DNA of 64,000 nucleotides from Marinifilum flexuosum (GTDB taxonomy: Bacteria; Bacteroidota; Bacteroidia; Bacteroidales; Marinifilaceae). Both the position numbers and the translations under genes were made by a program. The notes under the pieces are model-generated. The model ran no database searches and had not been told where the DNA came from. It saw only the letters and a program-made list of their open reading frames with translations. Shown in pieces: positions 29,069 to 64,000 of the stretch (position 1 is the first letter of the stretch; every line of letters starts with the position of its first letter). Where the stretch lies: NCBI RefSeq assembly GCF_003610555.1, contig NZ_RAPQ01000010.1:372001-436000 (forward strand), in the 5' to 3' direction.

Positions 29069-29093
29069 TGTCTTGATATTCAAAACTGGCTTT

Positions 29094-29268
29094 TCGAAAA
29101 AATTGTGCATTTCCAATGACAATTACACATCCGTTCGAAAAGTCAGCCTCTTTCCAAGTGAAAAACTACTTTCATTCAAAAAGTTGGCCTTTTTCCAGTG
29201 GAAAATCTACTTCCAACCAAAAAGTCAAGCTTTTTCTATTGGAAACATCAATTCATTTAAGAAAATTG
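29094..29268. repeat. Degenerate ~41-bp tandem repeat with ~20-bp sub-period
   Basis: Four units begin at 29107, 29146, 29187 and 29228 (39, 41 and 41 bp apart). Each contains a TTTCCAnTG-type motif and an AAAAAGTyr end (gcctctttccaagtg, gcctttttccagtgg, agctttttctattgg). TTCC/TTCG cores recur about every 20 bp. The array fills the gap between yedF and the small membrane protein. Reading frames through it look like chance. Confidence 0.55.
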
Positions 29269-51279: not shown

Positions 51280-51404
51280 AGCAAGATATTAAAACATTAA
51301 TAACTTCACTTTGCAATCCTTAATAACGACGAGAATAATTCAGAACATTAAAACCAATAAGTCCCAAACACAAACTTCTGTCCCGGAAGCAAAATGTTTA
51401 ATCA

Positions 51405-51598
51405 CTGTGATGGCAGGTCTTCTGACTTATCCTGATTTTTATGCCTTCCCATTCAATCTAAAACCGAACAGTGGCTGTAGTATAAAAACCGCGATCCCGA
51501 AACTTTGGAACCAGACTTACAGCAGCGGGAACTGTTGCAGATTTTCACTGCATTCCCTTTTAATCCTATTGCACAAGAAGATGCAACTAGAACCATTA
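51405..51598 (-). ncRNA. Cobalamin riboswitch
   Basis: On the minus strand the B12 box AAGTCAGAAGACCTGCCATC (complement of 51409-51428) ends an aptamer. It also holds AAAAGGGAATGCAGTGAAAA, CAACAGTTCCCGCTGCTGTA and CCACTG...GGGAAGGC, all in the class order. It lies between its own promoter and the btuB start, about 130 bases downstream, so B12 binding should repress the whole uptake and biosynthesis operon. The 3' sequence CTTCCGGGACAGAAG may be part of the switching hairpin. Confidence 0.95.
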
Positions 51599-51604
51599 CG
51601 ATCG

Positions 51605-51634
51605 CAAAAGTATATATTATTTTTTTACTGACAA
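51605..51634 (-). promoter_or_regulatory. Promoter of the cobalamin operon
   Basis: Minus-strand -7 TACTTTTG (51605-51612) and -33 TTG (51632-51634), spacing 19. Transcription would begin close to the riboswitch 5' end. Confidence 0.7.
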
Positions 51635-51702: not shown

Positions 51703-51789
51703 TGGTACCCGGGGCGGGACTTGAACCCGCACGGCCGTGAAGCCACTGGATTTTAAGTCCAGCGTGTCTACCAATTCCACCACCCGGGC
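51703..51789 (-). tRNA. tRNA-Leu (TAA)
   Basis: A long-variable-arm tRNA: acceptor GCCCGGG/CCCGGGT, anticodon loop CTTAAAA giving TAA, T arm GGTTCAAGTCC. The 3' CCA (51703-51705) is encoded, unlike the other tRNAs here. Confidence 0.96.
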
Positions 51790-51805
51790 ATCCTTATTGG
51801 ATTTG

Positions 51806-51878
51806 AGCGAGAAACGAGACTCGAACTCGCGACCCTAACCTTGGCAAGGTTATGCTCTACCAACTGAGCTATTCTCGC
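51806..51878 (-). tRNA. tRNA-Gly (GCC)
   Basis: 73 nt, acceptor GCGAGAA/TTCTCGC, anticodon loop TTGCCAA giving GCC. It precedes tRNA-Leu by 16 bp on one transcript. CCA is not encoded. Confidence 0.96.
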
Positions 51879-60582: not shown

Positions 60583-60810
60583 TTAAAGCTTTTTATTGAT
60601 ATCATCCTTAAAATCCTTGATGTTATCAAGAATTTCTGTTTCATCTTTTATTTCTTTTTTGATATCGTCGGCCGCTCGTTTGAATTCCTTCATTCCTTTA
60701 CCAAGGCCTTGGGCCAATTCAGGAATTTTTTTCGACCCAAAAAGTAGAAGAATTACAACCAGAACAATAACAATTTCCGCTCCACTAATAAATAAAAGTA
60801 TGCTTTCCAT
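60583..60810 (-). CDS. tatA: Sec-independent translocase TatA/E
   Basis: A 75-residue TatA. One N-terminal helix ([21 protein letters not shown]) leads to the FGSKKIPEL hinge and an amphipathic helix [20 protein letters not shown] use the ATG of MESILLF at 60810; the upstream ATG adds six residues that look like leader. It forms the twin-arginine channel pore. No tatC is seen in the window. Its upstream region contains the 21-bp phased array. Confidence 0.93.
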
Positions 60811-61028
60811 CTGATGAATATTTTTCACAAATATACCTAAGAAATTTCAAATTAATACGATAGTTGTTCATACTTGTATGCGAAAGTATTATTTAGAGAT
60901 AAAGTATTAATTGAACCACCAATGTTTTTTATCAGGAACTGATTACAAATCGAAGATCATTCAATCTTTCCAGGTAGATAAAAGCCATTGCTATTCTTTA
61001 TTTAAAAGCATTTTTAAGCTCCAGATAG

Positions 61029-61384
61029 GTTCCGTGCATAAAGCGAATCATTCCGAAACAAATTATAACTGTTCCGTTACAACAATCAGAACTTGCGAAC
61101 ACAATTCCTCTACCTGCGTTCGCCAAGTGGATCCTTCCGTATGCTAAATGAATAGTTCCGAACAAATTTTCAGCATTACTTTTTATGTGCGGAAGAACCA
61201 AAACTGCGTGCGGAACAACTTCCTGTGTGTGCGGAAAGGCCACTTTTGTGTTCGGAAGGATCTCCTTCGCGTTCGGAAGAAGAAAATGAGCGTGCGGAAG
61301 GGGTACCTTGATGTTCGGAAAGGGTATTCCAGCGTGCGGAAACCATTTCTTTGCGTGCGGAAGCAATTCCTTATCGTACGGAGC
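61029..61384. repeat. Exact 21-bp phased motif array, two opposed arms
   Basis: Units start at 61029, 61050, 61071, 61092, 61113, 61134 and 61155 (left arm, TTCCGwA type), then, after one 32-bp step, at 61187 and every 21 bp to 61376 (right arm, ten units, GTkCGGAA type). The right-arm core read on the minus strand is TTCCGCAC or TTCCGAAC, so the arms face opposite ways. Each unit is 8-9 conserved bases plus 12-13 variable ones. Several right-arm units carry GGAA-n4-TTCC. Open frames through it follow from a repeat length of seven codons. Confidence 0.9.
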
Positions 61385-61396
61385 AATATCCTAAAA

Positions 61397-61428
61397 CAAA
61401 AATCCCCCGAACCCAAAGGCCGGGGGAT
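61397..61428 (-). terminator. Intrinsic terminator after secDF
   Basis: An 8-bp stem ATCCCCCG / CGGGGGAT (61402-61409 with 61421-61428) is followed on the minus strand by a T tract. Confidence 0.92.
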
Positions 61429-61448
61429 GAAATTTATTGAAAGTTCAA

Positions 61449-64000
61449 TTATTTCTTTCTCTTGTCTGCTACTTTCTGAACACGTAAGCTTGTGTCGTAA
61501 GCAATAGGAGATGCAATAAATAGTGATGAGTATGTACCTACCATAACACCAATTAACAATGCAAATGTAAATCCTTGAATTGAAGTACCACCAAACAAGA
61601 AGATTGCCAACAATACTACCATTGTAGAAAGCGATGTACTAAATGTACGACGCATAGTACTGTTCAAGGCTTTGTTTACAACCTCTTCGCGATCGCGCTT
61701 AGGATATAATCCCAAATACTCACGGATACGGTCGAATACTACCACGGTATCGTTAATAGAGTAACCAACTACCGTAAGGATTGCAGCGATAAATGCCTGA
61801 TCAATCTCTAATGAAAATGGTAACCATCCGTAAAAAATAGAGAAAATCCCCAATACGATGATCGAGTCGTGAGCCAATGCAGCAACTGCACCTAAACCAT
61901 ACTGCCAGTTCGAGAAACGAACCATGATGTATAGGAAGATCACGATCAGTGCACCTAAGATAGACCACAATGCAGAAGTACGAATATCATCAGCAATGGT
62001 AGGACCTACTTTCTGAGACATTTTACGGTTGTTTTCCAAGAAATCAGCTTTAGTTGTTCCATTAGCAAGATATGGTTTCAAACCTTCATAAAGTAGATTT
62101 TCTACTTCATCATCAACTTCTGTTCCTGATTCTTCAATCTTGTATTTTGTAGAAATTTTAACCTGGTTAGCACCACCAAAAGTTTTTACTTCTGGAGCAT
62201 GACCATATACAGTTTCCAATGATTTAGCAACATCTTCAACACCTATAGCTTTATCGAAAGCTACAACGTAAGTTCTACCACCAGTAAAATCGATACCTTG
62301 GTTCAAACCTTTTGTAGAAAGTGATACAACACTTAATACAATAGCAATACCAGAAACTACATAGAATACTTTTCTTTTTTGTAGGAAAGTAACTGCTGAA
62401 TTTCTCAACCAGTTATCGGTAAATTTAGTTGCAAAAGTTACTTTACGGTTACGAGCTGTTTGTGCTTCAAAAATTAATCTTGTAATAAAGATTGCAGCAA
62501 ACAGTGATGAGAAGATACCGATTACCAATGTAGTTGCGAAACCTTTAATTGGACCTTCACCGAATAAGTAAAGAATGATACCAGTTAATAAGGTAGTGAT
62601 GTTACCATCGATAATTGCAGAGTAAGCATTCTTGTAACCATCAGAGATTGCAAGGCCTAATCCTTTGCCTGATTTCAACTCTTCCTGAATACGCTCATAA
62701 ATCAGTACGTTCGCATCAACCGACATACCGATTGTTAATACAATACCCGCAATACCTGGTAAAGTAAGCACAGCTCCTAATGAAGCCAACACACCAAAGA
62801 TGAAGAACAAGTTCGTGATCAATGCAATGTTAGCTGCTAAACCAGCACCTCTACTGTAGAAGAAGAACATGTAAACCAATACCAACACGAAAGCAATGAT
62901 AAATGAGTACATCCCTTTTTGGATTGACTCTTTACCAAGAGATGGACCAACAACTTCGTCGGCAATAATATGCGCTGGAGCAGGAAGTTTACCTGACTTC
63001 AAGATGTTTGCCAAGTCTTTTGCTTCAGCAACAGAAAAACCTCCTGTTATACTTGATTGACCACCTTTAATTTCACCTATTACGTTTGGTGCAGAATATA
63101 CATATCCGTCCAATACAATTGCAATTGCACGGTTTACATTGTCTTTGGTTAAACGAGCCCATGTTTTAGCACCTTCACCACTCATACTCATCGAAACTTC
63201 GTATTTCGCAGTTTGTTGGTCAACCTGTTCACGTGCTGAAGTAACAGCATCACCATCCAATGGAGCTTTTCCATCGCGGCTTGTTACTTTAATTGCAAAT
63301 AATTCGAACCAGTTAGCTCCTTCATCAATTGCTTTTACTCCCCAAAAGAATTTCAAATTACGAGGCAATACCGATTTGATAGCAGGCATTGCCAAAATAC
63401 GGTTTACATCAGCAGTATCCTTAATATGAGATCTACCCACAACTGCTGTTGGACGTCCACCTGGTTGAGTTGGATTCAAGATTGAGAATAATGGATACAT
63501 TTTAGCCATTGCTTTTGCATCTTGCGATGTAGCCAATGAATCTTGAGCACCTTCTTCTTCAATTTTATCTAAAAGAGCAACCTCTTCATCTTTTGCTTCT
63601 TCTTTTACCTCTTCTTTAGTAGCTTCTTCTTCAACATCACCTGCATTGTTAATTTCAGCAAGTTTTGTATTGGCTGCATTTAAATACTGCATTACTTCAG
63701 AAGCACTGTAAGTTTCCCAGAACTCAAGACTTGCAGTTCCTTGAAGAAGCTTACGTACACGAGCAGCATCTTTAATACCTGGAAGTTCGATGATGATACG
63801 ACCCGACACATCAGCTTTTTGGATGTTTGGCTGAGCAACACCGAAACGGTCGATACGAGAACGAAGAATATTGTATGTATTATCAATCGCTCCGTCAGTT
63901 TCTTCCTTGATCACCTTTAACACCTCTGCGTTTGAAGCTCCAAAAGGAATCTTGTCTTTCATCTCAAGGGTACCGAAGATATCAGGAGATGATAACTGAG
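61449..64000 (-). CDS. secDF: SecDF protein-export fusion, N-terminus outside window
   Basis: The frame is open to the window edge beyond the ATG at 63962, and QLSSPDIFGTLEM continues the SecD sequence, so at least the first membrane helix and part of the P1 domain are missing. Visible: SecD P1 parts (LRSRIDRFGVAQPNIQ, IIIELPGI), a Glu/Lys-rich insert near 110-150, the SecD membrane block (GIAGIVLTIGMSVDANVLIYERI) and the SecF half (GIDFTGGRTYVV, IAAILTVVGYSINDTVVVFDRIRE). It uses the proton gradient to pull exported proteins from SecYEG. One chain for both parts is normal for this phylum. It ends at a strong terminator. Confidence 0.96.
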   Translation of the reverse strand, partial: QLSSPDIFGTLEMKDKIPFGASNAEVLKVIKEETDGAIDNTYNILRSRIDRFGVAQPNIQKADVSGRIIIELPGIKDAARVRKLLQGTASLEFWETYSASEVMQYLNAANTKLAEINNAGDVEEEATKEEVKEEAKDEEVALLDKIEEEGAQDSLATSQDAKAMAKMYPLFSILNPTQPGGRPTAVVGRSHIKDTADVNRILAMPAIKSVLPRNLKFFWGVKAIDEGANWFELFAIKVTSRDGKAPLDGDAVTSAREQVDQQTAKYEVSMSMSGEGAKTWARLTKDNVNRAIAIVLDGYVYSAPNVIGEIKGGQSSITGGFSVAEAKDLANILKSGKLPAPAHIIADEVVGPSLGKESIQKGMYSFIIAFVLVLVYMFFFYSRGAGLAANIALITNLFFIFGVLASLGAVLTLPGIAGIVLTIGMSVDANVLIYERIQEELKSGKGLGLAISDGYKNAYSAIIDGNITTLLTGIILYLFGEGPIKGFATTLVIGIFSSLFAAIFITRLIFEAQTARNRKVTFATKFTDNWLRNSAVTFLQKRKVFYVVSGIAIVLSVVSLSTKGLNQGIDFTGGRTYVVAFDKAIGVEDVAKSLETVYGHAPEVKTFGGANQVKISTKYKIEESGTEVDDEVENLLYEGLKPYLANGTTKADFLENNRKMSQKVGPTIADDIRTSALWSILGALIVIFLYIMVRFSNWQYGLGAVAALAHDSIIVLGIFSIFYGWLPFSLEIDQAFIAAILTVVGYSINDTVVVFDRIREYLGLYPKRDREEVVNKALNSTMRRTFSTSLSTMVVLLAIFLFGGTSIQGFTFALLIGVMVGTYSSLFIASPIAYDTSLRVQKVADKRKK

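Follow-up and report, generated by a model that had tools for sequence, protein, structure and literature searches.

The window, by which we mean the whole 64-kb stretch of DNA analysed here, carries between tatA and secDF an array of short phased motifs (Table 1), which on re-reading unit by unit resolves, as the original prediction had it, into seven left and ten right units with a 21 bp period, set in opposed arms over 61029–61384. Left units start at 61029+21k, the last at 61155, and right units at 61187+21k, the last at 61376. The central step is 32 bp, again as predicted, when these unit starts are used, and 34 bp when measured from the start of TTCCG to the start of CGGAA. Degenerate cores are found in two of the seven left units (61093, TTGCGAAC, and 61114, CTGCGTTC) and in the last right unit (GTACGGAG). 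Within the 64-kb window the pattern CGGAA-N16-CGGAA occurs 11 times where 0.04 occurrences are expected, a number reached by none of 100 shuffles. The proposed setting, after the secDF terminator and upstream of tatA, is borne out by the coordinates of the hairpin and the genes. One detail needs correction: GGAA-n4-TTCC, said to be present in many right units, is seen in only two of the ten. The spacers, described as differing in every unit, do so within the window array but are partly conserved between species.

Table 1. Features at the secDF-tatA locus (window positions).
Feature	Position	Strand	Description
tatA	60583..60828	-	downstream neighbour, not part of the element
Left arm	61029..61163	-	7 units x 21 bp, core TTCCGNNAC-like, reverse orientation, 2 degenerate
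Centre between arms	61164..61186	.	TTCCG start to CGGAA start 34 bp = 13 mod 21
Right arm	61187..61384	+	10 units x 21 bp, core GT[GT]CGGAA, last degenerate
Terminator-like hairpin and T-run of secDF	61404..61419	-	between secDF and array
secDF (part in window)	61449..63962	-	array follows 3' side of gene

CRISPR arrays consist of near-identical repeats of 20–50 bp separated by unique spacers; here the shared part is only a core of 8–9 bp with 12–13 bp between cores, and this identity was rejected. No Rfam model matched the array, and a promoter scan of the sigma-70 type, the one type scanned for, found none in 60800–61500. Elsewhere in the window there is a cobalamin riboswitch (51395–51612), with two tRNA genes near it (51706–51878).

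The window's genome (G000) has the array at the secDF-tatA site in common with G002 and G003, which together with G004 belong to the same GTDB genus (g1); the G003 copy is shortened by whole units, with the 34-bp centre kept. The corresponding gap of G001 lacks the array and holds other sequence instead, and the array is absent from the remaining genomes read. By eye, the G011 gap (L078) contains an AT-rich repeat of ~42 bp with an unrelated motif. Between G000 and G002, cores and spacers differ at 2/56 and 13/79 positions in the left arm and at 11/80 and 24/118 in the right arm, and the centre at 2/23. The flanks differ at 47/198 and 5/64 positions, so that the array, taken whole, does not exceed all of its surroundings in conservation; in the alignment ~61071–61130 appears nearly unchanged by eye. 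The same comparison bears on whether the 21-bp unit, equal to seven codons, encodes a heptapeptide repeat; in favour, both genomes have one minus-strand frame that no stop interrupts along the array. With substitutions distributed 22/16/14 among the codon positions there is no sign of coding, the arms are inverted, stops interrupt the matching frame of TTCCGTAAC arrays in other genera (by eye), and alternating steps of 20 and 21 bp, as found in some arrays, shift the frame; we regard the chance of a coding repeat as close to negligible.

Further arrays, on the existence of which the original prediction had staked its case, were found at three other sites of the genome and in relatives, all of the same design. 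In G000 the window core recurs at the same spacing at C1:1934356, C3:329545 (C3 being the window's own contig) and C8:74718, and these three type A arrays share one plan, with an arm on either side of a centre, the TTCCG arm being the more degenerate and the CGGAA arm the longer. Of 24 stretches scanned, from five genera, 16 yielded a chain for each arm; the 16 include several orthologs and represent at least seven separate sites. TTCCG precedes CGGAA in all 16. Measured by hand between the innermost TTCCG and the first CGGAA, the spacing of the arms is 34 bp in nine and falls in register 13 mod 21 in 14. The exceptions are L155 and L148, the latter with 22-bp steps and a register of 13 at its innermost pair, while a further array (L010) has register 12. 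We state the rule of arm order for type A only, because a two-armed array with another motif (L032, G011:C5, 1464–1722, core AGCCAACGGAA) has CGGAA first; L020 was also flagged as having the reverse order. G009 carries two A arrays (L148, L149) and no family gene of the kind described below, even beyond a nearby IS21 element; one of the two contains recently copied identical units at 21/22 bp steps, and the other adjoins the IS21 element.

A candidate partner for the arrays is encoded beside one of them. The gene G000:C8:75123–75866 (L009) specifies a protein of 248 aa and adjoins its own A array, which lies just downstream. Across three GTDB genera, eight arrays lie 60 to 248 bp downstream of genes for a 248-aa protein with 54 to 95% identity to the G000 copy. 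The L009 family has nine copies in G000 and the gene was found in 22 of 56 genomes of the taxonomic family, with relatives in records named Marinifilum, Labilibaculum, Ancylomarina, Carboxylicivirga and Saccharicrinis, plus Marinilabiliaceae and Salinivirgaceae. It is present in 16 of 393 sampled genomes of the order, with at most six candidates scored per genome, and in a phylum sample of 395 genomes only in the window's own genome. L009 gave no significant Pfam or PHROG match; a PDB sequence search with it returned nothing, and one with the family alignment a single chance-level match (E 0.15). Over 20 members Pfam gave scattered weak matches, the best being Enhancer of rudimentary in 2 of the 20 (E 3.8e-5), and PADLOC, run on four members, gave no match. 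The AlphaFold model of the 248-aa protein is all-helical (mean pLDDT 92.9, pTM 0.74), and a fold search with it against PDB and viral libraries produced no match at E ≤0.001. The two halves of the protein are homologous to one another (hhalign E 1.3e-6; best of ten column shuffles 0.018). The net charge is acidic in 17 of 20 members (−7 for L009), although in 14 of the 20 the C-terminal 45 residues carry a net basic charge; this speaks against a protein that simply binds DNA and would allow for a partner. Judged from these searches, the L009 family is an undescribed family, predicted to be all-helical, of no known family.

Family genes are followed by arrays far more often than control genes: of 95 family entries, 78 have a downstream chain score of at least 4.8, compared with 10 of 264 controls taken from 424 kb of contig C3. 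The 95 entries count three loci twice, as broken-gene pieces (L185, L187, L244), distinct loci giving 77/92; genes lacking a stop or with less than 250 bp downstream were dropped before counting. After collapsing at 90, 80 and 55% identity, groups with any array number 60/71, 51/61 and 16/22. The chain finder permits steps of 20–22 and 40–43, and the mean periods of linked arrays therefore lie within that range by construction; the period itself was tested by searching the same regions at other periods, where 20–22 bp gave 78/95, 18–20 bp, which shares 20, gave 7/95, and seven others gave 0 or 1. An earlier lag test had found the downstream side above shuffles in 49 of 57 entries and the upstream side in 3 of 56. 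Loci taken separately from the order's other families behave likewise, 21 of 26 exceeding all shuffles downstream against 2 of 23 upstream (17/26 and 1/23 at a score of at least 4.8, from printed values), the 26 being those of 32 listed matches outside the own genome that have a locus. Motifs vary across 20 paralog loci and, by eye, follow nearly every gene; examples are CCACACC|GTGTGG, GCTACAG, TAGGCTATGG, CTGGAGAA and GTCTTGGAG.

Linked arrays differ in their distance from the gene. Thirty-five of the 78 begin less than 75 nt after the stop (mean period 20.63), with a hairpin and T-run before 7, and 43 begin at 75 nt or more (mean period 20.94), with a hairpin and T-run before 39; these hairpin counts are without a shuffle control, and in the longer stretch before distant arrays a hairpin is more likely to occur by chance. 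Among the 78, 18 showed opposed arms (6/35 near, 12/43 distant), and several near arrays alternate steps of 20 and 21 bp. Of the 35 near arrays, the 28 that have no detected hairpin and T-run between them and the stop are probably inside the mRNA, and a gene with its own tandem repeats is also what would be seen if private repeats acted as RNA, as in a type III toxin-antitoxin system. We consider this unlikely, because of the distant arrays set behind a hairpin and T-run, the confinement of the period to about two helical turns, the presence of the motif on both strands of two-armed arrays, and the position of arrays upstream of the gene in the sister family described below. The folding of the window array, with z = −1.28 and 10 of 100 shuffles folding equally well, speaks against it too, as do the four PADLOC results and the weak Pfam matches listed for 20 members, among which there is no toxin; neither search found a ToxN-like endoribonuclease. 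As far as the accessible account of ToxIN extends, that system is similar in pairing a protein gene with its own tandem repeats, but here the array is downstream, often behind a hairpin and T-run, and helix-phased, and the protein is predicted to be all-helical with no toxin match. The suggestion in the original prediction that the window array is a source of small structured RNAs gained no support from the same folding result, and in 39 of 43 distant linked arrays a hairpin and T-run separates gene from array.

A second, homologous family, PQLLE (NCBIfam NF052641), extends the linkage. Its cut-off of 80 bits is not reached by L009 (24.3 bits) or by two other members (17.1 and 28.5), while 11 of 20 members match it at E ≤0.001 (best E 5.1e-9) and the two families align by hhalign with a probability of 94.7 and E 6e-8, five column shuffles giving E ≥0.3. 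PQLLE-family genes were found in 26 of 393 genomes of the order. Arrays of ~21 bp lie upstream of 23 of 30 PQLLE loci and downstream of 1 of 30, compared with 5 of 262 control genes upstream; the 30 loci were drawn from 63 listed matches, with ORFs picked by position, and include two 143-aa fragments of near-identical loci, L361–L363 being below the family cut-off. The PQLLE family thus resembles the L009 family in being homologous to it and linked to ~21-bp arrays, and differs in that its arrays are upstream and that L009-family proteins fall far below its cut-off. By these counts, two homologous protein families are associated with phased arrays. G000 has at least one PQLLE-like gene (C1:556257–556772, 45 bits, below the cut-off of 80), and ~430–700 bp upstream of its likely start stands an array of a second type, B (CAACCGAGCGGCGGAA / TTGGCTAAGG.CGGAA). 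Type B arrays of G000 (L042, L044, L046, L047) are listed at C1:557358, 990507 and 2120194 and at C3:282949; L044 and L046 start with TAGCCCCAACGGAA and decay towards the far end. We had considered type B a separate repeat and dropped this, the C1:557358 array being the one upstream of the PQLLE-like gene.

With both linkages at hand, two other readings of the arrays can be weighed. Neutral minisatellites merely accumulating near family genes would explain the gain and loss of whole 21-bp steps, as in G003, the recently copied units of G009, and a window array that is as a whole not clearly more conserved than its flanks. This is nevertheless very improbable given that cores are less diverged than spacers, that the arm register is fixed over genera, that the arrays are linked to two homologous families on defined sides, and that the period is confined to two helical turns. 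Alternatively, the arrays may act as punctuation at gene ends, influencing mainly the transcription of neighbours by termination, insulation or autoregulation with no wider role in the chromosome. Linked arrays do hug the 3' or 5' side of their gene, and in all four A arrays of G000 the right arm meets, or extends slightly into, the 3' end of a gene transcribed in the direction of the array. Many arrays, however, are already preceded by a hairpin and T-run, and the orphan A arrays, those with no family gene beside them, have as neighbours secDF and the genes for a DUF4294 protein and a methyltransferase, which share no obvious feature, leaving a purely local role an improbable one.

Across genera, more closely related proteins tend to have more similar motifs. 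Protein identity and motif similarity correlate with a Spearman coefficient of 0.29 over 1926 cross-genus pairs from 75 loci (75 of the 95 entries, with genus labels assigned by hand), a value reached by none of 500 permutations (maximum 0.12). Similarity of motifs rises from ~40% identity, with medians of 0.31–0.32 below this and of 0.35, 0.46 and 0.53 above, and for 46 of the 75 loci the motif of the nearest protein outside the genus ranks within the top 10% by similarity. In linked and orphan arrays alike, the core is shorter by one base in genus g1: eight-base and nine-base cores number 35 and 1 in its linked arrays and 64 and 5 in its orphans, against 0 and 38 (linked) and 0 and 65 (orphan) in other genera, G011 included (exact CGGAA only, with 59 such units of neither core form left out). 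At least two A-type pairs are present in 10 of 12 genomes whose best protein is at least 60% identical to that of L009, and in 2 of 44 others. An array was called in this 56-genome table from two pattern pairs upwards, so that the one-match genomes G032, G062 and G079 count as without; the GT[GT]CGGAA pattern was run in five genomes of the genus only. Four genomes depart from this: pairs without a close protein occur in G009 and in G059, where the match resembles type B, and a close protein without an A array by pattern occurs in G001 and G071. Against a pairing it must be set that linked gene and array are inherited together and that motif similarity rises only from ~40% identity, and also that the other eight G000 motifs, searched over 424 kb, gave a single chain of three units. 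Orphan arrays could, moreover, be copies of a linked array rather than co-evolving with the protein.

Arrays of this period extend well beyond the family loci. In an unbiased lag scan (lags 12–60) of 424 kb of C3, 20 groups had at least 56% identity over 126 bp, of which 16, in ten places, were at 20, 21, 41 or 42 bp; ~21-bp-period arrays thus dominate the tandem periodicity in the scanned 424 kb of this one contig. The ten places comprise two A arrays, one type B array and others with motifs of their own. There are no family genes on C3, suggesting that there are more partners or more orphans, or that some of the arrays are of another kind. Among those observed (L318–L335), arrays at C3 194554, 266041, 301709 and 352410 have 20/21/41/42-bp periods and own motifs and lie at gene ends, the one at 194554 looking like repeated hairpins. 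The window itself contains an intergenic tandem array of period 41 between two plus-strand genes (29088–29245, G000:C3:401088) and a short array of period 22 (TRF) after a gene end (973–1025), with TTCCGCAAA and TTGCGCA-like units.

The nine paralogs and the orphan arrays of G000, together with array-free sites in relatives, raise the question of whether the array, with or without its gene, has spread selfishly as a mobile cassette, the array serving as the site of mobility and IS200/RAYT-like transposases perhaps assisting. Such genes adjoin 6 of 118 family loci (L184, L215, L263, L266, L302 and L314, with L302 on a short match only) and none was found by tblastn in the 424 kb of C3. Only one of four tested passes the Pfam cut-off, however, and in the comparison with REP/RAYT systems, where these same 6 of 118 loci have Y1-type genes beside them, there was none near the A arrays of G000: its eight Y1_Tnp places are all far from the four, although a family gene lies ~3 kb from one of them and a type B array ~3 kb from another. 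In some species of the genus, arrays also persist at orthologous sites and keep their register, and searches of plasmids and phages found no relatives of the L009 protein. We therefore judge a mobile cassette an unlikely explanation.

Plasmid iterons offer a familiar layout, tandem sites spaced at about two helical turns next to the gene of the Rep protein that pairs specifically with them. The family loci share the adjoining gene, the spacing and a probable specific pairing, but this is a chromosomal multi-paralog family in which the array is mostly 3', some arrays have opposed arms and orphans lie elsewhere, and no Rep initiator family is among the Pfam matches listed. ParB-parS and other bacterial centromeres combine a protein with several chromosomal site clusters. 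The likeness lies in such clusters and in possible bridging between them; unlike them, one genome here has many different motifs, no widely recurrent neighbour gene was found, and the Pfam matches listed include no ParB domain. The BrickBuilt MITE minisatellite of Porphyromonas gingivalis is likewise an intergenic tandem array with many copies per genome, but its 23-nt units follow one another without spacers and are framed by a leader and tail with small inverted ends, and the available part of its description names no cognate protein (PMC4596501). TAACTGA heptamer repeats, some of them in Bacteroidetes too, are also short and intergenic, but are heptamer direct repeats which in the main species mostly lie just before start codons, and no linked protein family appears in the part of that account available (PMC4679880). 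In the openly accessible literature, to which our search was confined with most subscription papers outside its scope, we found no description of such arrays or of their pairing with a protein.

The original prediction had listed a landing pad for a cooperative DNA-binding protein among several possible roles, and this part of it is the best-supported, with the L009 protein as the candidate; a nucleoid or segregation role, which it also named, may apply as well. The window array is probably an orphan copy of phased sites that serve a cognate L009-type protein as a binding platform, a reading for which the counted support is the array itself, the linkage to two families, the relatedness of motif and protein, the shared change of core and the fixed register of type A. 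Some functional pairing of protein and array is very likely. That family proteins would bind DNA directly and sequence-specifically we also favour, with moderate confidence. We infer that the near-two-turn spacing is easiest explained by proteins on one face of double-stranded DNA. In our proposed model a family protein, or a complex holding it, would bind the cores cooperatively, with bound proteins sitting two turns apart on one helix face, and the bound array would form a nucleoprotein filament or cluster that may fold, mark or insulate the chromosome at gene ends; protein bound at a linked array may also feed back on the gene that encodes it. That the role is architectural or insulating, and not of some other kind, is the most tentative part of this model and is itself somewhat doubtful.

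More broadly, the chances seem about even that the two families represent a Bacteroidales superfamily of duplicated helical proteins, in which each subfamily would have a DNA specificity and a two-turn phased array of its own, downstream of the gene in one branch and upstream in the other, with orphan arrays acting in trans. If this is true, marine Bacteroidales would possess a class of paired proteins and phased DNA arrays, and about ten orthogonal protein-DNA scaffolds would operate side by side in one cell. The paralogs would then provide dozens of natural motif variants on one protein fold, and with them direct access to how a protein of this kind selects its DNA, as well as a toolbox of orthogonal arrays.
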